DNA of 64,000 nt from Mycobacteriales bacterium. GTDB lineage: Bacteria; Actinomycetota; Actinomycetes; Mycobacteriales; QHCE01. The DNA is taken from NCBI GenBank assembly GCA_013362805.1, contig JABFVL010000004.1:241791-305790 (forward strand), given 5' to 3'. Position numbers and translations under genes: made by a program. Shown here in pieces: positions 1,986-58,239 of this stretch (position 1 is the first letter of the stretch; the number at the start of each line of letters is the position of its first letter). A model generated the notes under the pieces. It was not told the DNA's origin and did no database searches. It saw only the letters and a program-made list of their open reading frames with translations.

Positions 1986-3254
1986 ATGACCTATGGCCCA
2001 CACGGCGGGACGCCCTCACCACAGTTGGACCCACGCCACCATGCCGTGGTCACAGCGATAACGCCCTGGTACAAGCGGTCCATCGTCCGCATTCTGTTGA
2101 TGATCGCGACCTTGGGCGTGATTGGCGTCTGTGCCGGAATCATGCTGATGCTGATCGGCGTTCAGCTCGGGCCCGGCTTGACTTTGGTGGCCGCCGGCTT
2201 CGCGGCCATCCCTGTTCCGCTGCTTTTGATGGCGTTTTTGTGGCTAGACCGTTATGAGCCCGAGCCCTGGCACTACCTCGCCGCAACCTTTTGCTGGGGC
2301 GCGTTCGTGGCCACCCTGGCGGCGCTATTCATCAACACCACCTCCGCCGAGGCCTATCGGCTTGAGGGCGGCACCGAGCCGATGAAAGTCATCGCCGTAT
2401 TCGTCGCGCCCCCGGCGGAAGAAATCTCCAAGGCGATCCCGCTGTTCATTCTGCTCGGCCTCATATTCTTTGGCCGACGCAACATCCACGGAGTCGTCGA
2501 CGGCATTGTCTACGCTGGGTTCGCCGCGGTCGGATTCGCGTTCACCGAAAACGTTCTTTACTTCGGCCGTGCCTACGTTGAGGGATCCGAGCAAGGCAGC
2601 GGCGCGGGCATCGGCGCGTTGATCGCTACCTTCATCATGCGTGCGGTCATGTCGCCGTTCGCACACCCCATGTTCACCGTCATGACCGGCATTGGAGTGG
2701 GCATCGCGGCACGATCCCGCAAATGGAGCACCAGAATCATCGCTCCATTGATCGGGCTTTTGCTCGCTATTTTCCTACACGGGCTATGGAACTTTTTCGC
2801 CAGCCGAGGCGATCTCAAAGTCCTTTTTATCGGCTACATCGCCGTGATGATTCCCATTTTCTTGCTGCTCAGTGGCATTGCGATCTGGGTGCGTCGACGG
2901 GAAAGCAACATTACCAATACCGCCCTTCCCGCTTATGTGGCCGCCGGTTGGCTCACCGCCGAAGAGCTTCATTCCTTGTCCAGCATGCGTGAGCGGCTTA
3001 TCGCGCGGGATTGGGCACGCAGCTACGGGGGCTCGCACGGAGCCAAAGCGATGCAGGCATTTCAGCTCGCCGCCACCCGATTGGCGATCTTGCGTGATGA
3101 CGCGGTGCGCGGAATCCGGCGCAACGACTACGCGAACCAAGAACGGGAACTTCTTAATACTTTGACGTGGCGCCGACGCGAGGTCCTGTCATATGTGTGG
3201 CGGTGGACTCGCCCCAGTTCAGCGACACCGTACTCATTGGTCCCCACCCGATGA
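1986..3254 (+). CDS. PrsW-family intramembrane metalloprotease
   Basis: A 422-residue polytopic membrane protein. RYEPEPW sits near residues 87-93, and PPAEEISKAIPLF contains the EExxK motif expected at the membrane-embedded active site. FTENVLYF and the later HGLWNF are further family landmarks. PrsW proteases cleave anti-sigma factors or process membrane proteins; the substrate here is unknown. The last 110 or so residues are soluble and probably cytoplasmic. The ATG at 1986 follows a GGAG at short spacing. Confidence 0.85.
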   Translation: MTYGPHGGTPSPQLDPRHHAVVTAITPWYKRSIVRILLMIATLGVIGVCAGIMLMLIGVQLGPGLTLVAAGFAAIPVPLLLMAFLWLDRYEPEPWHYLAATFCWGAFVATLAALFINTTSAEAYRLEGGTEPMKVIAVFVAPPAEEISKAIPLFILLGLIFFGRRNIHGVVDGIVYAGFAAVGFAFTENVLYFGRAYVEGSEQGSGAGIGALIATFIMRAVMSPFAHPMFTVMTGIGVGIAARSRKWSTRIIAPLIGLLLAIFLHGLWNFFASRGDLKVLFIGYIAVMIPIFLLLSGIAIWVRRRESNITNTALPAYVAAGWLTAEELHSLSSMRERLIARDWARSYGGSHGAKAMQAFQLAATRLAILRDDAVRGIRRNDYANQERELLNTLTWRRREVLSYVWRWTRPSSATPYSLVPTR

Positions 3255-48249: not shown

Positions 48250-49826
48250 GCCGCCGTAAGCCCGTGGGCCGAATCAGCTTCGTCGGGGTGGGCCCCGGCG
48301 ACCCTGGCCTACTTACGCGCCGAGCGCTAGCGGCGATCGCCGAAGCCGAACAGCTCTTCTATGACAGCTCGGTTCCCGAGCAATTGCTGACCGCGATCCG
48401 GGAAACCGCACCTGAAGACGCTACCTTCACGGTCGTCGACGCGGACCCCGCCGAAGCGGCGAAGAACGTTCTCGCCGGCGCGCGCGCTGGCACCAACGTC
48501 GCCCGCCTTGTACACGGCGATGTCATGACCAACAGCCACGTGGCCAAAGAGGTGCAAGCGGTCACCAAGACCGTGGTGCCCTTTGAGGTGCTGCCCGGCG
48601 TCAACCACGCCGACGGCGTCGCCACCTACGCCGGCACCCCGTTGGGTGGCTTGCGCACCATTGTCGACGTTCACGACGCGGCCACCGTTGACTTCGCGGC
48701 TCTGCCCGAAATCCCCGGCTCGCTCGTTATCACCGTGGACGCCAACGACCTGACGACTGTCCGAAATGGGCTCATCGAAGCTGGTTTCGATCCAGCGAAC
48801 CAGGTCAGCATCACCGGCGAAGGCACCACCGAAATTCAGTCCACGTCGGTCACCACGTTGGAAAGCGTGGCCGACGCCGCGATCGGACTGTTCGGCCGCC
48901 TGGTGTTGACCTTCGGCGCGGGCGTAGCCCAGCGCGGAAAGTACGCCTGGTGGGAATCACGCGCCCTGTACGGCTGGAAAGTTCTGGTGCCCCGCACCAA
49001 GGAACAAGCTGGCTCAATGAGTGCCCGTCTTCGCGTCTGGGGTGCTATTCCCTGCGAGGTTCCCACTATCGCCGTGGAGCCACCTCGCACCCCAGCCCAA
49101 ATGGAACGCGCCATCAAGGGCCTCGTCGATGGACGCTATGCCTGGGTGGTCTTCACCTCAGCCAACGCGGTTCGCGCCGTGTGGGAGAAGTTCGGCGAGC
49201 ACGGGCTCGACGCCCGTCACTTCGGTGGCGTGCGCATCGCCTGCATCGGCGAAGCTACCGCTGACGCTGTCCGCGCCTTTGGTATCCAGCCCGAGCTGAT
49301 TCCTTCCGGCGAACACTCCAGCGAGGGATTGCTGGAAGATTTCCCGCCATACGACAAAGTCCTCGACCCGATCGACCGCATTTTGCTACCGCGTGCCGAC
49401 ATCGCCACCGAGATTTTGGCCGCCGGTTTGCAAGAGCGCGGTTGGGAAATCGACGACGTCACCGCGTACCGCACCGTCCGGGCGGCCCCGCCACCCGCCG
49501 ACATCCGCGATGCCATCAAGAGCGGTGGCTTTGACATGGTGTTGTTCACCTCGTCATCGACTGTCCGCAACTTGGTGGGTATCGCTGGCAAGCCGCACGC
49601 CCGTACCGTCATCTGCTGCATCGGCCCCAAAACCGCCGAGACAGCGCGCGAGCTTGGTCTGCGAGTAGATGTGCAGCCCGAAGAAGCGAACGTGGAGGCG
49701 CTGATCGAATCTAGCGCCGAGTACGCGTTGGAGCTGCGCGAGAAGATGGCGAACATGACAACTAAGCCTCGTCGTGGCGCCAAGATTCAAGGCCCCACCG
49801 CTGGCCGGTTGGCTAATCGCGGTTAG
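48246..49826 (+). CDS. hemD: Uroporphyrinogen-III synthase fused to a CobA-like methyltransferase domain
   Basis: A 526-residue fusion. Residues 1-240 resemble uroporphyrinogen-III methyltransferase (FVGVGPGDPGLLTRRAL, FEVLPGVNHADG), but the SAM-binding GGDPFVFGRGGEE block is replaced by VHGDVMTNSHVAKEV, so methylation is doubtful. Residues 250-510 are the HemD domain (VLVPRTKEQAGSMSARL, VFTSANAVRAVWEKFGEHG, FTSSSTVRNLVGIAG). The same fusion occurs in Rv0511. A U-tailed terminator follows. Confidence 0.93.
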   Translation: MSRRKPVGRISFVGVGPGDPGLLTRRALAAIAEAEQLFYDSSVPEQLLTAIRETAPEDATFTVVDADPAEAAKNVLAGARAGTNVARLVHGDVMTNSHVAKEVQAVTKTVVPFEVLPGVNHADGVATYAGTPLGGLRTIVDVHDAATVDFAALPEIPGSLVITVDANDLTTVRNGLIEAGFDPANQVSITGEGTTEIQSTSVTTLESVADAAIGLFGRLVLTFGAGVAQRGKYAWWESRALYGWKVLVPRTKEQAGSMSARLRVWGAIPCEVPTIAVEPPRTPAQMERAIKGLVDGRYAWVVFTSANAVRAVWEKFGEHGLDARHFGGVRIACIGEATADAVRAFGIQPELIPSGEHSSEGLLEDFPPYDKVLDPIDRILLPRADIATEILAAGLQERGWEIDDVTAYRTVRAAPPPADIRDAIKSGGFDMVLFTSSSTVRNLVGIAGKPHARTVICCIGPKTAETARELGLRVDVQPEEANVEALIESSAEYALELREKMANMTTKPRRGAKIQGPTAGRLANRG

Positions 49827-49835
49827 TAGCTAGTT

Positions 49836-49880
49836 AAGAGGGGCCCTGGCGAGATAACGCTCGTCAAGGCCCCTCTTTTT
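49836..49880 (+). terminator. Rho-independent terminator of rex-hemACD
   Basis: AAGAGGGGCC (49836-49845) pairs with GGCCCCTCTT (49868-49877), with an extra imperfect inner stem and a run of T to 49880. It is unusual in this window for having a U-tract. Confidence 0.9.
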
Positions 49881-49907
49881 ATGCGCAAAACTTACTGGAA
49901 TCTTCGC

Positions 49908-50204
49908 TTAGCTGCGCACGCGCCGGGCGGGCGGCGCGTACAAGTGTTTCGCACACACGTTGATGGGTTCGTAACCTGGTTCGCCGAGCCGGTAGCGCGC
50001 GGGTTGACACTTCGGCACGCCATAAGCAGTGCACGTGGCGCAAGTGACGCCGAGCAGCCGCCGTATCCAGCTGATGCGTCGCACTGTCCAGCTGCCCAAC
50101 CGGTCTGTGGCGGGCAAAAGATGCCGGGCTGGGTTCGGTAGACGGAACGGGTCATCAACGTGGCGGGGTCTAGATGGATAGGTCGGTGCTGCGCAGGTAG
50201 GCAT
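49908..50204 (-). CDS. Small Cys-containing hypothetical protein
   Basis: A 98-residue protein beginning MPTCAAPTYPSRP. The C-terminal half has VTCATCTAYGVPKC and YEPINVCAKHLY, a CxxC...C...C(x)H arrangement that could bind zinc or a cluster. GGAG sits 5 bases before ATG 50204, although the frame is open further upstream. I recognise no family. It is the leftmost gene of the hemD/hemB island, convergent with hemD. Confidence 0.55.
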   Translation of the reverse strand: MPTCAAPTYPSRPRHVDDPFRLPNPARHLLPATDRLGSWTVRRISWIRRLLGVTCATCTAYGVPKCQPARYRLGEPGYEPINVCAKHLYAPPARRVRS

Positions 50205-50234
50205 GATGACTCCAAAGTGGTGTGGAAGTTTGAG

Positions 50235-50265
50235 GCCTGGCGGCAAGTGGGAGGGGCCGCCAGGC
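50235..50265 (-). repeat. Inverted repeat in the leader of the small Cys protein gene
   Basis: GCCTGGCGGC (50235-50244) and GCCGCCAGGC (50256-50265) pair perfectly with an 11-base loop, 31 bases upstream of ATG 50204 on the minus strand. It could be a 5' leader structure or the end of an upstream transcript. Confidence 0.5.
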
Positions 50266-50509
50266 AGGGCCGCGAGTGAGTTCTCAAGCGGCAGAGGCGC
50301 GCAGACGAGCGTGACCCAAATGGGGGCTAGCCAAATTTCCGGGCCACCACTTACGTGTTTGCGCGCAGGACACATCACATGTCGCGCGTGGCCACACTAC
50401 GAAGCCAGTGGCCATCGCGAAAACATGGGGGCTCGCGGTGACGACAGCACGGAAGAGCTAATTTGGACATACGTCGACTCCTGACTTAGCGGCATGGAAT
50501 TCGATGAAT

Positions 50510-50541
50510 GGCTCTAGTGGAGTTCCCGCTCCGCTAGAGCC
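50510..50541 (+). terminator. Orphan plus-strand terminator
   Basis: GGCTCTAGTGGAG (50510-50522) pairs with CTCCGCTAGAGCC (50529-50541), with one G-U pair and a 6-base loop, followed by GCTTTCCTTTTAC. No confident plus-strand gene lies upstream, hinting at a small RNA or small ORF ending here. Confidence 0.6.
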
Positions 50542-50583
50542 GCTTTCCTTTTACGGACAGCAAATCGAGCTCTTTCGCTCAAA

Positions 50584-50599
50584 CGCATACTAGTATGCG
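50584..50599. promoter_or_regulatory. Perfect 16-bp palindrome, probable GntR operator
   Basis: CGCATACTAGTATGCG is fully self-complementary and lies 124 bases upstream of the GntR-family gene. Palindromes of this size with a TA-rich centre are typical GntR/HutC operators, so autoregulation is inferred. Confidence 0.6.
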
Positions 50600-50722
50600 C
50601 TATTCAAAGTAGATGGATGAGCTTTCTTGTGGGCTACGAAGACACTCACGCCGTAGCATTGAACGCAAGCTAGAACGCGATTAGCCACCACACCTAGCAC
50701 ACGAAGAGGGAGGGAAGAGAGG

Positions 50723-51481
50723 ATGACACCGCAAATTCAGCGAACAGTCCCGCCATTCATGCAGATTGCGGACCACTTCCGGCAAAAGATCACTGACAGG
50801 GCCCTGCCCGAGGGCTCGCAGCTTCCAGCGATCACCTCTATTGCAAGCGAATGGGGCGTGGCGTCAGCTACAGCGGCCAAGGCAATCAAACATCTGCAGG
50901 CCGAAGGATATGTGCGGTCGACGTCGCAAGGCACGTTCGTAGACGTGAGCAAGAAACAGACCACAGGGCCAGATCGACTTCAAATGCTCAGGGTAGGAGG
51001 GACAGGATTCCGTCCAGGCGAACGCGTCGAGATCCTGAGCGCGACTATCGTTCCAGCGTCGACCGAAGTGGCGCAAGCATTTGGAACAGCAGAGGGAAGC
51101 CCTGTCATTCAGCGCCAACGACGCTACTTCGACGAGGATGGAGTCGTTGCTCTGTCCACGTCGTGGCTTCCCGGCGAACTAGCCGAAAGCATCCCCGAGC
51201 TGATCTCGACCGAACCCCTACCGAAAATGACGTTCGGCCTGGTAGAAGAACGCACGGGAAGACGAGTAGTACGGAGGCACGATGTAGTTGCGCTGCGCCC
51301 CGTGCCCGAAGAAACGGCGACGCTACTAGGCGTTGAGGTGGGCGCGCCCGCATTGACGATGACTAACCAATATTGGGACCAGCACGGAGCTACGACGGAG
51401 TACGCAACAGACTTTCTTGGCGAAGATCGCCAACTATCCGCAGAGTATGACCTCGATATGACGCCTTCTCGCAACGGATGA
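50723..51481 (+). CDS. GntR-family transcriptional regulator with UTRA domain
   Basis: A 252-residue HutC-subfamily regulator. The N-terminal winged helix has FMQIADHFRQKITDRALPEG and VASATAAKAIKHLQAEGYVR. The UTRA ligand domain has RQRRYFDEDGVVALSTSWLP and a C-terminal ATTEYATDFLGEDRQ. AGGGAGGGAAGAGAGG precedes the ATG. The ligand is unknown. A 16-bp palindrome lies in its promoter, and a DUF397 gene follows after 34 bases, probably in the same transcript. Confidence 0.92.
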   Translation: MTPQIQRTVPPFMQIADHFRQKITDRALPEGSQLPAITSIASEWGVASATAAKAIKHLQAEGYVRSTSQGTFVDVSKKQTTGPDRLQMLRVGGTGFRPGERVEILSATIVPASTEVAQAFGTAEGSPVIQRQRRYFDEDGVVALSTSWLPGELAESIPELISTEPLPKMTFGLVEERTGRRVVRRHDVVALRPVPEETATLLGVEVGAPALTMTNQYWDQHGATTEYATDFLGEDRQLSAEYDLDMTPSRNG

Positions 51482-51515
51482 AGAAACGCACAACACCGCT
51501 AGAGGAGCATTCGCC

Positions 51516-51842
51516 ATGGCAAACCGCAAACGTATCTACGTCAAAAGCAGTCGCTCTGGAGGCAGTGGGGGCAATTGCGTTGAATGGGCCATCGAACCTA
51601 AAGGCGTCTATGTGCGAGACAGCAAAAACTCGTCCGGGCCCGAGCTGCTACTTACCCACCAAGAGTGGAACGCATTAGTTAGAGCGGCCGGATCAGGCAC
51701 CGACCACCCCTACATAAACCTGCATGCAGCAGGAGCCCGCATACGCAAAGACGGAACAGAACTAGCATTTACCAGCAGAGAATGGGTAGCTTTTACAGCA
51801 GCAGCCATCGCAGGAGAATGTCACAACTTTCTGGCTGTCTGA
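51516..51842 (+). CDS. DUF397 protein with two repeats
   Basis: A 108-residue protein. Residues 7-58 are a full DUF397 domain (VKSSRSGGSGGNCVEWA, GVYVRDSKNSSGPELLL, EWNALVRAA). Residues 67-101 repeat the second half (GARIRKDGTELAFTSREWVAFTAAAIAGE). DUF397 proteins are small partners of XRE regulators, as in the Streptomyces WhiJ-type modules. AGAGGAGC precedes the ATG. Here the only XRE-like protein nearby is the convergent multi-HTH sigma factor, 54 bases away. Confidence 0.88.
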   Translation: MANRKRIYVKSSRSGGSGGNCVEWAIEPKGVYVRDSKNSSGPELLLTHQEWNALVRAAGSGTDHPYINLHAAGARIRKDGTELAFTSREWVAFTAAAIAGECHNFLAV

Positions 51843-51896
51843 GCGTCATGGAAATTTTCGCGTCGGCAAGGTCCTTCATTCGGGCTGATGTCGAGG

Positions 51897-54302
51897 TTAG
51901 GCCTGTGCCCGGAGCCTTGCGAGGGCCCGCTGCTCGATCACGCCGACATGTGGGACAGCTAGGCGAGTGTGTTGGGCAATTTGTTCGTCGTTCAACTCTC
52001 CGGCGAACCGCAATTGGAGTATTTGCGCTTCTCTCGGGGTAGCGAGCGAAAGCAGGGACGTTGCCATTGACCTCGCGTCAACGACCGAAAATCCGTGATC
52101 GAAATCGCCGAAGCGGTCCGCTAACGTCAACGAGTCACCGTCGGGGGAAATGTGGGCATCCAGAGATGTCGGTCTAGAAGCTTGATTGAGGGAAGTCTTG
52201 ACTGAGATGATTGTTGCCTCCTCAATATCAAGTTCAAACGCGACTTCTTCTAGTGTCGCTTTTCGTCCGAGTTGTAAAGCCAGGCGCGATTCTGTTTCCT
52301 GTATGTTTCGGCCAAGGCGGTGCTCTGCCTCAGGAACGCGCACAAATGCGCCTTGGCGCGCCAGGTAGTTTTTGATGTCGCCATGCGCCCGCATGATCGC
52401 GAGCTCCGCGAAATCGCCGCTGCTGTCCCATCTGCGAGCCAGGCGCACAAGCCCCAGTGCGGCAACCTGTCCCAGTTCTTCAGCTTCGTAATGATCGCGG
52501 GTGAATTTCCAGGCTTGCGCACGAACGATTCCAACGTGCGCGTATATGAGCTTTTCGATCTCAGGCAAATCGGTGGAAACCGGCGGAGCTTGTGGATGTC
52601 CGACCGCGCGCGAGATATCGGCGCCTGTCACGTCGCCGCATGGATATTGCGCTGCGAAAACATCGAGATATTCAATGGGAGGTAGAAGTCTGTTGTTTTC
52701 ATAGTCGCTGATCGTCGTTTGAACTCGACCGGTTCGTGATGCCACCTCTTGTTGGGAGACCCCGTGAAGTTTCCGCACTCCGATCAGATATGCGCCTAGG
52801 TCAGGTTGTCGCTTGGGATGTAGAGACTTTGTCGTGGGAAATCCGAGAGGCTCGGCCAGATCGTCATAGAGAATCCCCTCGATTGGCCAATGAATAAGCG
52901 CCTGATGCAGATGACCCGCTTGGACGGTGACGCGTAGATGCTCCAAGTCGAATAGGAGGCTCGGACCGTAGGAAAGAGGCTGAGCGAATTCTTCCCTTGT
53001 GACATCGTGGTATTCGCGAACCGCACGCAATGTCCGAGCTCTATGCCCATCTCGGGCAGCATTAATGATGGCATCGGCGGTGGGCAAGCCATGAAAGCGC
53101 GCAATGGATTCGTAGGTCACACCAGCCGATGTACATGCCGCGAGAACCTCACGTATGAACCTAGCTCTATGGCGATATTTGTTCTTCTCCGCGTTGGCGA
53201 CGGTGCTTTCACTTACTCCTAGCCGTATCGCCAACTCAGGCTGCGATATCCCTTCATATCGCCGAAGGGCCTCGATCTGTTCGCCAAGTGTCTTGTTCCG
53301 AGTAGGTTGGATTGTCGCGCGGAAGGGATAGCGGTAAGCCGCAGCCACTATGTCTTCATCGATGCCGGGCAACGGGTATTGCTCAATAATCGCTTGCCAT
53401 TGAGCATGTGACGGGCGCACAAGATCTCGTTCGTAATTTGAGATTTCAGACTTAGCTTTGTTCAGTGGCGCCCCGAATTTCTCTTGTGTCAACCCGTAAT
53501 AGGCCCGACGAGCTTGCAGATGGCTACCAAGAGATCTGCACAGTTTTGGATGGGCGTACTGGGCAAGTGGAAGGCCAAAGTTTTCCGCGACGGCGTCGTA
53601 ATTAACTACCGGACCGTTCGGATCTTCGAGCACCCTTCGAATAAGCCAGACAGGAATTTGCTCCTTATCAAGATGCTGAAGAAAAGAGCTCCTAGCAAGG
53701 CCATGACGGCGTGCGAATTCAGCATCTGTCTCACCGTAATAGTCGCGGTATGCCTCGATTAGTTCACGAACAGTGCCATGGTTGCGATGGTCTAAGGAAA
53801 GCAGAGTCGGGTAGCCGAAATGTTCCGCGAGATCTTCATGTCCGATCCCTCGCAGCGGATATGTGTTCGCAAGTCGATGAAGGACCCACGCTGGCGCTTG
53901 AAGTTCTTTTTTAACAATCGCCTTGAGCATCCGTCGCCCGATTTTGGTCTCACGGGCTAGCTCCTCGGAACCACGCTTGTAGAAAACACCGACTCCCAGC
54001 ACGTATTGGCCCAAGTCTTCTGCCGGGGTATTCCACGGCACAAGTGCGGCTGGAAACTGCTGGTTAAAATGCTCGTCAAGCCCGCCCGGATCGACACGAT
54101 GTCCGGCCAAGTTCACCCAGACCTGCAGATCCTCGTCCGAGATAGCGATATGCCCGGATTCTCGTCGCCGAGCCGTAGAAACGCTGATATCAAACAAGGC
54201 GGCGACGTCTTGAATCTCCATGCCCTTTGCTATACGCGTCGCGCTCGCGAACTCACCGGCGCGAAAGAACCGATAGGGATGTGCGAGTTGAGTCGTTGGC
54301 AT
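51897..54302 (-). CDS. Seven-module HTH/XRE-sigma-70 fusion protein
   Basis: An 801-residue protein with an architecture I do not know. Residues about 10-579 are seven tandem modules of about 80 residues, each an HTH_XRE-like unit followed by a Y/P-x-x-G-I...DLAE-x-x-G-x-P segment; modules start near 15, 98, 178, 258, 340, 421 and 502. The clearest HTHs are GVSQQEVASRTGRVQTTISD (module 7) and GISQPELAIRLGVSESTVAN (module 5). Residues 580-660 are sigma region 2 (GDIKNYLARQGAFVRVPE), 663-733 region 3 (LGRKATLEEVAFELDIEEAT) and 748-801 region 4 (TPREAQILQLRFAGELNDEQ), closest to SigF/SigB. GGAG 8 bases before ATG 54302 is better placed than the GTG at 54311. Its base composition is less GC-rich than its neighbours. 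Confidence 0.88.
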   Translation of the reverse strand: MPTTQLAHPYRFFRAGEFASATRIAKGMEIQDVAALFDISVSTARRRESGHIAISDEDLQVWVNLAGHRVDPGGLDEHFNQQFPAALVPWNTPAEDLGQYVLGVGVFYKRGSEELARETKIGRRMLKAIVKKELQAPAWVLHRLANTYPLRGIGHEDLAEHFGYPTLLSLDHRNHGTVRELIEAYRDYYGETDAEFARRHGLARSSFLQHLDKEQIPVWLIRRVLEDPNGPVVNYDAVAENFGLPLAQYAHPKLCRSLGSHLQARRAYYGLTQEKFGAPLNKAKSEISNYERDLVRPSHAQWQAIIEQYPLPGIDEDIVAAAYRYPFRATIQPTRNKTLGEQIEALRRYEGISQPELAIRLGVSESTVANAEKNKYRHRARFIREVLAACTSAGVTYESIARFHGLPTADAIINAARDGHRARTLRAVREYHDVTREEFAQPLSYGPSLLFDLEHLRVTVQAGHLHQALIHWPIEGILYDDLAEPLGFPTTKSLHPKRQPDLGAYLIGVRKLHGVSQQEVASRTGRVQTTISDYENNRLLPPIEYLDVFAAQYPCGDVTGADISRAVGHPQAPPVSTDLPEIEKLIYAHVGIVRAQAWKFTRDHYEAEELGQVAALGLVRLARRWDSSGDFAELAIMRAHGDIKNYLARQGAFVRVPEAEHRLGRNIQETESRLALQLGRKATLEEVAFELDIEEATIISVKTSLNQASRPTSLDAHISPDGDSLTLADRFGDFDHGFSVVDARSMATSLLSLATPREAQILQLRFAGELNDEQIAQHTRLAVPHVGVIEQRALARLRAQA

Positions 54303-54538
54303 GAGTTTCACTCCACATTTCTAGGAGAAGGGCGGAACAAAGCCTTTGTTGCCAACCTGAGTTCGATCGCAGTGATAGATCAGAACATCATTCGAGGCTT
54401 GATTTCATGATCTCAATCAATGCCCACTGATGTCCGCCAGTAGTCGTGATCATCGCGACACTCTTGCGAGCTTCCAGTTCAGAGCACCACAACGGATTTG
54501 CTCGCGGGCAAGGTGTCTACAACGTGTAGAACCCCCAA

Positions 54539-55615
54539 GTGGCGGGTGAAAAACCTCGGCGTAGCATCGATGAGGTGACAGGTCTTTCTGATCTTTGCCC
54601 CGCGACCCCGCAAGCGGAAATCCCCAGCCCTCGCCGTGGGACGTTCCCGACCGTCCGACCACGTCGGCTCCGGAACAGCTCCGCCATCCGAAACCTGGTA
54701 GCCGAACACCGGCTGCATGCCTCACAACTCGTGCTGCCCCTGTTTGTGCGAGAGGGCCTGACCGAGCCACGGGCGATATCGAGCCTGCCGGGAGTGGTGC
54801 AACACTCGCCGGAATCCATGCGCAAAGCCGTGCGTGAAGCCGCCCAAGCCGGGCTTGGCGGGGTGATGCTCTTCGGCATTCCAGACCAACGCGACGCCAC
54901 CGGCAGCGCCGGTGTCGACCCGGATGGGGTGTTGCAACGAGCGATCCGGGACACCATCGCCGAGGTTGGGGACGAGACCGTGGTGATGAGTGATCTTTGC
55001 CTCGACGAGTTCACCGACCACGGACACTGCGGGGTACTCGACGCGCGCGGCAACGTCGACAATGACGCCACCCTGCTGCGCTACGCGGAAATGGCGCTTG
55101 CGCAGGCTGACGCTGGCGCCCATGTGCTCGGACTGTCCGGGATGATGGACGGGCAAGTTGCCGCCGTGCGATCAGCGTTGGATGCGGCCGGACACACTGA
55201 CGTCATCTTGCTGGCGTATGCCGCCAAATATGCTTCGGGCTTTTTCGGGCCCTTCCGCGAAGCCGTGGAATCGGCCCTTGAGGGCGACCGCAACACGTAT
55301 CAGCAAGATCCCGCTAACGCCCGTGAAGCGCTGCGCGAGGTTGAGCTTGACATCGCCGAAGGCGCCGACATCGTGATGGTGAAACCGGCGTTGCCGTACC
55401 TCGACATTGTGCACGCGGTGAGCAGCCAGGTCACCGTGCCAGTGGCCGCGTACCACGTGTCGGGCGAGTACGCGATGGTCGAAGCCGCCGCCGAGCGAGG
55501 CTGGATTGATCGCGAGCGGGTGATCTTGGAATCGCTGACCAGCATTCGCCGGGCGGGTGCCTCGATCATTTTGACCTATTGGGCGACCGAAGCCGCTGGG
55601 CTGCTGCGCGGATAG
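54539..55615 (+). CDS. hemB: Delta-aminolevulinic acid dehydratase (porphobilinogen synthase)
   Basis: A 358-residue enzyme. The Schiff-base lysines are in [14 protein letters not shown] and [12 protein letters not shown]. The metal site reads [14 protein letters not shown]: two of the three zinc cysteines remain and one position is Asp, as in mycobacterial Hem[14 protein letters not shown] marks the usual N-terminal region; the first 30 residues from GTG 54539 are extra and the true start may lie downstream. In mycobacteria hemB directly follows hemD; here 4.7 kb intervene. Confidence 0.95.
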
Positions 55616-55640: not shown

Positions 55641-58127
55641 TCAGCAAGGCGTTGTCGAGGAGTTGCTGGTTTCGGTCGAGCCGGAGAGAACTTCCACCTT
55701 CGCCGACGGGTCCAGGTTCGTGTTGGGCACTAGCGCGGTGACGGTGATGGTTTCCGTCTCTGACATCGCCCGATATTCACCAGGCGATATGCCATCCCAT
55801 CCCTGGGTGGGAGTGATGTAGCCGGCCGAACCACAGTCATCGCCGCCCAGGTTGCCTTGACTATTGGATGCCTGCACTGACCCGGTCACGATGAATTCGA
55901 CCTGCACACTGCCATCGACCCGAGTGTCAACATCAGTCACCTCACCCGCGGTGAAGTGCACTTCCATGTAAATGCCCTCAGTATTGTTGGCGCTCAACAT
56001 GTCCCGGAAGAACTCGACGGACACATTCGTGTTCGGACCATTGGCGAAAAGCTCGTCGCCTTGCGGTGAGCCGTTGGTGCCTTCCTCCATGTAGCTGGCA
56101 AATTTGCCGGGCAACTCTTCAGGCTCTATAAGCAGCGACGCGGGTTCGCGCTCCTCGGATGGAGGCGCATAGCCCTCGTCGTCGGCATCCACTTCGGGCA
56201 CTTCGCGCTCTGTGTTGGAGTAGAGGAAGCCCGTCATTTTCCAGGGCTCATCTTCGGAATCTCGCTCAAACTCGGCGAGAACTCCGAAATCGTTTGGATC
56301 TTCGTTGGTGTGATTGGGTTCAACCAGGTCCGCGTAGGCGGTGAAGTTCGCCGGGTATTTCGTCTGCCTAGGCACATCCACCTGCAAGATGTCGATGGCC
56401 CATGCTTGTTTGCGGCCCGCGTTCTCCACAGATTCTTTAGCGGCCGAGCGCACCACATTGGGGGTGCTCTTTTCGTCTTCCTTGGCTTTTCGCACCTGAC
56501 CCCAGATATCGGCCACGATGATCCGGGCCTGCTCAGGTGTTACCACCACATCGGCGCGTGCCGTGGAGGGATTGGGTTCAACCACCACGGCCGCCGCCGC
56601 TACCGCGGCTACGGCCGCGACCGCGATTCCGGCTTTGGCAACATTCAAAAGTGTCAGCCCTAGCGGCGCACTCGCGGTGGGCGAAGCGGAAGCAGCGGCC
56701 ATCACCGCGGCTGAGCTAGCGGTTCCTGTGGCCATGCTCAACCCGGCGTTCGTTGCGAGCGCCCCTCGGACTATCCAGTCTGGACCAAAGATTTCGTGGG
56801 CGACCACGTCAAGATCGATCCCGAACTCGGCGGCGTTGGCGTAGCGCTGGGCTGGATCTTTCGCTAGCGCTTTTTCGAGGATGCGGGTTAAAGCGGGCGG
56901 CAAACCGGAGCCGGCGAGGATCGTCTCGGCTGCTAAGGAAAAGTGGTTTTGCGCGGTGACTTGTGGTGTGGGCGCGGCATAGGGATTGGACCCTAGGCAC
57001 AGTTCAGCTAGCACAACGCCACAGCTGTAAACGTCGCTGCGAGCACTGGCTGGCTCGTTGCGAAGTTGCTCTGGGCTCATATATGAGGGGTTAGCGCTCA
57101 CTGGGATGAAGGCCGGAACCGCGGGCCCCGCACCGGCACCTTCGAGAACGCGAGGCGTGCCAGATGCGTCGAACACCACCATGTACGGATTGAGCTCGCG
57201 ATGCACCCAGCCTTTGTTGTGCAATGGCGCCACGGCGGCAAGTAGGCCGCGCTGCACGACCAGCGCTTGCTCGGGCCGCAACAGCCCGTGACGGTCGAGA
57301 TATGTGCGGACATTCACCCAAGCCGCATCATTTTTGCGTTTCCGCTCCCGTTGTGGCAGCAGGGCAATGCCGAGCACCACGGCGCCCACAAGCGGGGGCA
57401 ACGCCCAGCCCCACTTCTCTTCGGGGGCGACGACACCCGTTTCGTAGAGCAAAACCGCATGGCCAACCCCAGCGGCTAGGCCCAAAGCGACGGCGATGCT
57501 GGCGTTGGCGATCCGGTTGTCTTTGCTGCGGCGAGCGAACAAGACGGCGGTGGCCCCAGCGATCAGCGCTGCCAAGGCGCCAATGAGCGCGATGGGGGTG
57601 AAGAGCCCATTGCTGTCGGCCACCAGGTGAATGCTGACGGCGCAGCTCGTTTCGCTGCTATCGATCGTTAACCGAGAGCTGTGTGGGGAGCCAAGGGACC
57701 AAGGGCCAACCACAACTCGCGAGGCTCGCTCTCGGGCGTCCTGCGGAGTTTTGTTAAAGGAATGTGGGCTAGAAAGCCCACCGAAGGCGGTCACCTCGGC
57801 CTTCACCTCACCGGGGGCCTCCACGGAGTCAATGACAAATATCCAACTGGTGTCCGCTGGAATTTCAAGCGCGGACTGGGCGTTCGGGCCGGTGAGGTGA
57901 ATAGCGTTTTGCAGGTTTTCACCCGGTGCGGAATCGTCCAGCTTTTCGGCCGCTTGATCGGCATCGCTGGCGGAGTCAAAGTGATAGGCGGTGATGGTGC
58001 AGTTCGAAGGTTCTTGTGCGCCGACACCTTCGGCGGCGCCCACACTTTCGGCGACTGAAAGCTGAATCACTGCGGCCGCTAAACAAGCCAGCCCAGCAAA
58101 GGCTAGTCGCGTTAAGACAGACATCAT
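55641..58127 (-). CDS. Membrane pseudokinase with extracellular domains
   Basis: An 828-residue protein. A signal sequence is followed by an extracellular region (about 35-175), three membrane helices (about 176-257), a kinase-like C-lobe (265-447), a further helix near 499-516 and a 310-residue extracellular tail. The kinase part lacks an N-lobe and ATP-binding lysine. The catalytic loop is VHRELNP instead of HRDLKPxN, DFG is replaced by EGAG, but SPEQL and [13 protein letters not shown] are kept. It is probably catalytically dead and may scaffold or sense. AAGGAG favours ATG 58127. It is convergent with hemB. Confidence 0.78.
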
Positions 58128-58239
58128 TCCCCGTATCTCCTTGACGATCCCGCATAACCCTGGCACGGATCGTGGGCGCGGGAGGCGAATTTCCACAGGC
58201 CCATATCAATCGGGGAACGGCGAGTGTAAAGATGACGTC

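Follow-up and report, generated by a model that had tools for sequence, protein, structure and literature searches.

A sigma factor joined to a predicted tandem array of XRE-type helix-turn-helix modules in a Mycobacteriales bacterium

We analyzed a 64,000-nucleotide (nt) stretch of DNA from a Mycobacteriales bacterium (QHCE01; assembly GCA_013362805.1, contig JABFVL010000004.1, positions 241,791-305,790, forward strand), referred to here as the window. One of its genes encodes a sigma factor with a long tandem array of XRE-like helix-turn-helix (HTH) modules joined to its N-terminus. A preliminary description had proposed this composition for 51897..54302, and the reading frame, the modules and the sigma regions all confirmed it. 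The residues with which sigma factors of the SigB/F family read promoters are changed in this protein. We favor, tentatively and at somewhat less than even confidence, a model in which promoter targeting has been handed to the N-terminal array, which would dock a sigma-derived polymerase module at tandem sites. The array-sigma gene and the parts of its product are given below; bit scores are from a held-out test in which a profile built from six modules was scored on the seventh.

51897..54302, reverse strand: array-sigma gene, 801 amino acids, ATG at 54302, stop ending at 51897
54024..54275, reverse strand: module M1, residues 10-93, HTH matches in register, 0.2 bits, the weakest module
53784..54023, reverse strand: module M2, residues 94-173, 33.4 bits
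53541..53783, reverse strand: module M3, residues 174-254, 29.4 bits
53298..53540, reverse strand: module M4, residues 255-335, 35.9 bits
53055..53297, reverse strand: module M5, residues 336-416, 43.3 bits, the best Pfam HTH_31 stretch and the module that was modelled
52812..53054, reverse strand: module M6, residues 417-497, 39.6 bits
52584..52811, reverse strand: module M7, residues 498-573, 36.9 bits
51900..52556, reverse strand: sigma-70 regions 2, 3 and 4 (Pfam), residues 583-801

The gene has a ribosome-binding site (GGAG, 8 nt before the ATG), and each of the five other frames contains 18-40 stops across it. The seven tandem modules occupy residues 10-573 and the sigma part starts at about residue 583, with almost no linker between them. 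A frame error or fusion artefact was considered and rejected: a single open frame spans the join, and a strong internal start is absent from the sigma border, near which the possible starts are one GTG at 558 and one TTG at 579. Given one genome, some residual chance of an assembly error behind the join has to be allowed.

Self-comparison of the protein revealed a period of 80-82 residues, with further matches near 161-163, 243-244, 324 and 405. Modules M2 to M7 are mutually homologous, scoring 29.4-43.3 bits in the held-out test as compared to 6.1-8.8 bits for the best shuffles (836-938 of 1000 shuffles were scored per module). The array thus comprises four or more XRE modules, six by the held-out test, with M1 in register and carrying weak HTH matches at residues 21-53. 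On the whole protein, Pfam HTH_31 reached 94.8 bits (cut-off 27) and HTH_3 77.6 bits (cut-off 23). A structural model of M5 alone (predicted local distance difference test, pLDDT, 85) had the lambda-repressor/XRE fold. The modules are therefore predicted to be XRE helix-turn-helix domains, less securely so for M1.

The preliminary description had envisaged seven modules of 78-82 residues, each with an HTH-like core and a conserved G-I-x-x-E/D-D-L/I-A...G-x-P segment. The profile matches and the module model upheld the core, although in searches of single modules at E<=0.1 HTH_31 matched five of the seven and HTH_3 four. The tandem array also stood, but the lengths are 76-84 residues and M1 was not shown to be the same module. 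The segment is real but loose, the proline alone being invariant across all seven modules.

In the C-terminal part, Sigma70_r2 (30.5 bits, cut-off 24), Sigma70_r3 (28.9 bits, cut-off 25.3) and Sigma70_r4 (53 bits in two stretches, cut-off 24.1) were all recognized. The protein also passed TIGR02937 (73.4 bits, cut-off 42.9), placing it in the sigma-70 superfamily, and was 28-35% identical to sigmas of related genomes. The best named group was SigB/SigF/SigG (TIGR02980), at 111.3 bits and below the cut-off of 234.35. We compared the protein with 51 reference sigmas (11 loci plus 40 further places picked for spread; one sigma came from the same genome), and called a position conserved if the same residue occurred in at least 80% of them. 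Regions 2.3-2.4 of array-sigma keep 7 of 19 conserved positions, where the minimum among the 51 is 15, and region 4.2 keeps 4 of 12 (minimum 9). Substitution scores for the same segments are far outside the family, at 0.28 for 2.3-2.4 (minimum 0.76) and 0.22 for 4.2 (minimum 0.78). The recognition-helix segment SQMHVSR reads AVPHVGV in array-sigma, without the polar residues of SigB/F or primary sigmas; we take these to be base-contact positions, by analogy with E. coli sigma-70. Region 3 (9 of 13 conserved positions, minimum 7) and region 4.1 (9 of 14, minimum 9) are within the family range, as is the substitution score of region 2.2 alone (0.75, minimum 0.56), so that by sequence this region appears compatible with core RNA polymerase binding. 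The earlier assignment of the sigma regions to the SigF/SigB type was thus correct in that regions 2, 3 and 4 are present and SigB/F-like; full membership was not borne out, owing to the sub-threshold group score and the changes in 2.3-2.4 and 4.2.

The gene facing array-sigma suggests a candidate partner.

51516..51842, forward strand: DUF397 gene, 108 amino acids, two Pfam DUF397 stretches

This gene and array-sigma meet tail-to-tail across 54 bp. BLASTP of its two halves gave no alignment to each other, so the case for a duplication is the two Pfam stretches. The host genome has four DUF397 matches, one of them in the islet that holds both genes (see below). Two others directly adjoin HTH_31-DUF5753 genes, while the fourth (21.5 bits, cut-off 24) is separated from such a gene by about 1.1 kb and two open frames; DUF5753 is present in all three DUF397-linked XRE proteins of this genome. 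On plasmids, too, the closest relative of the islet DUF397 adjoins an HTH regulator. Beside DUF397, array-sigma stands where the XRE partner would be, and this gene neighborhood provides circumstantial support for docking of the DUF397 protein on the array. Such pairs are established regulators: according to PMC6262351, the Scr1/Scr2 XRE-DUF397 pair switches on antibiotic production but does not function as a toxin-antitoxin system, and according to PMC10294661, WhiJ9 binds three 10-bp direct repeats, BldB binds no DNA, and fusions of BldB with WhiJ number 129.

Where an HTH array precedes a sigma factor whose promoter-reading residues are changed, the simplest interpretation is that targeting is the job of the array. 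Among the three roles suggested earlier for the array (binding repeated DNA sites, folding back as a built-in anti-sigma module, docking DUF397 partners), the first fits best. The array, or a DNA-binding subset of its modules, would occupy direct repeats upstream of target promoters, in parallel with separate WhiJ molecules on 10-bp repeats. The sigma part would grip core RNA polymerase through the preserved region 2.2 and would open a nearby promoter, dispensing with the usual -35 contact. A single polypeptide would then be both activator and sigma factor, the covalent counterpart of sigma appropriation, and the product of the tail-to-tail DUF397 gene would modulate the array in the way proposed for BldB-type proteins and WhiJ. 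A more specific form of this model, in which the array replaces region 4, every module recognizes a single unit of a tandem-repeat operator and the DUF397 protein is the switch, is possible but doubtful. If true, repeat number and spacing would set promoter strength or choice, and this would be a new bacterial way of specifying promoters.

Several observations weigh against handing targeting to the array. M1 failed the held-out test (0.2 bits, where its best shuffle reached 5.4), and for this module the count of seven therefore rests on register, length and weak HTH matches. With a net charge of -2, the array as a whole is not basic: M2, M4 and M5 are basic, and M1, M3, M6 and M7 are acidic or neutral. 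A full-length single-sequence model reached pLDDT 38 and was not used. No direct repeats were found in 54250-54620, upstream of array-sigma, and the tandem repeats of the window form no array of sites; repeats in 49800-51960 were short, two-copy and likely due to chance, and promoter-like matches were at the shuffled expectation (2 vs 1.9). The gene occurs in one genome only. Regions 2.1-2.2 keep 6 of 14 conserved positions, as compared to a minimum of 9 among the 51 sigmas. Finally, a primary sigma (P0004) scored 0.92 in region 2.2, 0.18 in 2.3-2.4 and 0.40 in 4.2 against the SigB/F consensus. As P0004 is also far from this consensus, the change in array-sigma may be one of specificity rather than a loss.

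One possibility is therefore a sigma factor of ordinary mechanism and new specificity, whose changed regions 2.3-2.4 and 4.2 read different -10 and -35 elements while the array adds upstream contacts or cooperativity. The equal distance of P0004 from the SigB/F consensus in 2.3-2.4 and the family-range regions 3 and 4.1 are consistent with this. However, the contact positions of 4.2, as we presume them to be in this protein, are mostly apolar or glycine, unlike the SigB/F and primary sigma versions, and we consider this explanation unlikely, though a serious one. Another possibility is a repressor or decoy: the array would bind DNA or partners while a sigma remnant holds core polymerase and opens no promoters, or the array would cover the sigma part as a built-in anti-sigma, to be released by DUF397 or DNA. 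Loss of the promoter-reading residues with retention of region 2.2 would suit such a protein, as would an acidic sigma part (net charge -7) behind a non-basic array. The genome also encodes another SigB/F-type sigma (L148), which has the usual promoter-reading residues and which a decoy could oppose. There is no direct evidence for this role, however, and the full-length model was unusable for judging how array and sigma pack; we regard it as rather unlikely.

A third explanation concerns the origin of the locus, which includes two further features.

49827..54538, no strand: low-GC (guanine plus cytosine) islet between hemD and hemB, holding the GntR, DUF397 and array-sigma genes
50723..51481, forward strand: GntR/UTRA regulator of plasmid type, upstream of the DUF397 gene in the same islet

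By projection, hemD and hemB are adjacent in 47 of 48 relatives (32 loci plus 16 further genomes; in one, hemD fell outside the fetched flank), with gaps of -140 to 863 bp, whereas in the window 4.7 kb separate them. GC content is 0.52-0.60 over most of the islet vs 0.60-0.66 around it, and third-position GC is 0.54 vs 0.67-0.76 for hemC, hemD and hemB. The best named relatives of hemD are about 70% identical and belong to genera that we take to be Micromonosporaceae. The islet GntR is 56% identical to a GntR on a 7.7-kb Nonomuraea plasmid, and matches to PHROG families span almost the whole of both the GntR and DUF397 proteins. The islet is likely to derive from a plasmid or an integrative element. 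It could be speculated that array-sigma is a decaying or neutral mobile-element product, a chimeric gene of no settled function. The low-GC islet within a conserved hem junction, the plasmid-type GntR, the weak M1 and the lack of a detected orthologue all fit this idea. Yet the 801 codons are intact and have a ribosome-binding site, stops are frequent in the other frames, and M2 to M7 all keep the module pattern despite deep divergence; we find this explanation improbable.

Insertions may be favored at the hemD-hemB junction, as at a hot spot. In a sister genome (L092), where the gap is 863 bp, an extra open frame lies at about 2620-3231; it is unrelated to the islet and by eye resembles a Uma2-type protein. 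Between hemD and the GntR gene, a strong 15-pair terminator-like hairpin (50509-50542) lies within about 800 bp that hold no clear gene. Beside hemB, 55641-58196 on the reverse strand encodes an 851-amino-acid protein that matches the later part of a protein-kinase profile only (positions 86-253 of 263) and is possibly a membrane pseudokinase. An Rfam search gave no match. A defence system was also considered and rejected, as PADLOC gave generic HTH matches and, for the sigma part, a weak one to MzaA (E 7e-4).

Word-based searches of 5.8 billion proteins with the whole protein, the sigma part and M4-M7 (7998, 5794 and 4141 candidates scored) returned no other array-sigma fusion, although this method can miss relatives that have few exact words in common with the query. 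Pattern searches of genome and viral contigs found no relative either. Among plasmid records 35 matched array-sigma and among phage records 3, none over more than 80% of the query; the sigma part alone was matched in the best 20 of the 35 and in all 3, respectively. In 397 genomes of the order and 394 of the class, two sets that overlap and in which three candidates per genome were scored, matches of other genes extended over part of the array at most. Searches of open-access papers turned up no description of a sigma-HTH array fusion or of tandem XRE arrays, and we know of no family joining a sigma factor to an HTH array. This supports the preliminary description, which likewise knew of no described family of this kind.

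The search for homologues with variable module number, while yielding none of array-sigma, uncovered standalone XRE arrays. P0006 (587 amino acids, on a 2.88-Mb contig), which came from the protein search with M4-M7, has eight HTH_31/HTH_3 stretches (HTH_31 368 bits) and no sigma; its Sigma70_r4 match falls on its first HTH module. This array is longer than any in the genome searches. L061:6030-7298 (the same gene as L191) encodes 423 amino acids with five HTH_3 stretches, and with the related arrays L189, L190 and L192 such proteins occur in four genomes, all from a single family within the order; they are apparently a conserved protein family. In a sister genus, L060:5085-6251 encodes 389 amino acids with four HTH_31 stretches; in L059:5091-7288 of the same genome, weak HTH modules precede a long C-terminal part. 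No sigma match at E<=1e-3 was found in L060, L061, L189, L190 or L192. Tandem XRE arrays of 4, 5 and 8 modules without sigma are thus recurrent, and the sigma fusion is a single case. With P0006 as query (E<=1e-15), arrays were found in 4 of 367 genomes of the order and 0 of 346 of the phylum; this search scored three candidates per genome and missed the array-sigma gene itself, so its misses mean little. These arrays appear to be an undescribed class of actinomycete proteins.

Bacterial initiation is normally split, sigma reading the -10 and -35 elements and separate activators reading upstream sites. A long HTH array and an altered sigma in one chain would show that both jobs can merge, and array-sigma could serve as a scaffold for testing the replacement of sigma region 4 by programmable DNA-binding modules.

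Compared to known systems, array-sigma resembles the SigB/SigF/SigG (group 3) sigmas in having regions 2, 3 and 4 in order, and differs in its sub-threshold score, its changed promoter-reading residues and the HTH array of about 570 residues in front. A 465-amino-acid SigB-like sigma, P0003, also has an N-terminal addition, but its STAS domains are signalling domains, not a DNA-binding array, and its promoter-reading residues are intact; the N-termini of P0003-P0005 aligned to the array without meaning. The standalone arrays P0006, L061 and L060 share tandem HTH_31/HTH_3 modules at similar spacing, whereas sigma regions were not found in them and their modules are without the extra terminal G-x-P segment (profile matches end near position 60). 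WhiJ/Scr1-type regulators share HTH_31-class modules and a DUF397 gene alongside, but have one module rather than seven, no sigma C-terminus and no convergent DUF397 gene. They consist of HTH_31 followed by DUF5753, which is not among the best 25 of 31 Pfam matches of array-sigma (weakest of these E 0.01). Direct-repeat binding is reported for WhiJ9 (PMC10294661) and would be a shared property if the array binds as proposed. In sigma appropriation by phage T4 AsiA/MotA (PMC6755090), another protein replaces sigma region 4 in contacting upstream DNA; these are separate proteins acting on a host sigma as compared to the proposed single chain, and the analogy is functional only. The parts of array-sigma are known, and their combination, an HTH array joined to a sigma factor, is to our knowledge not.
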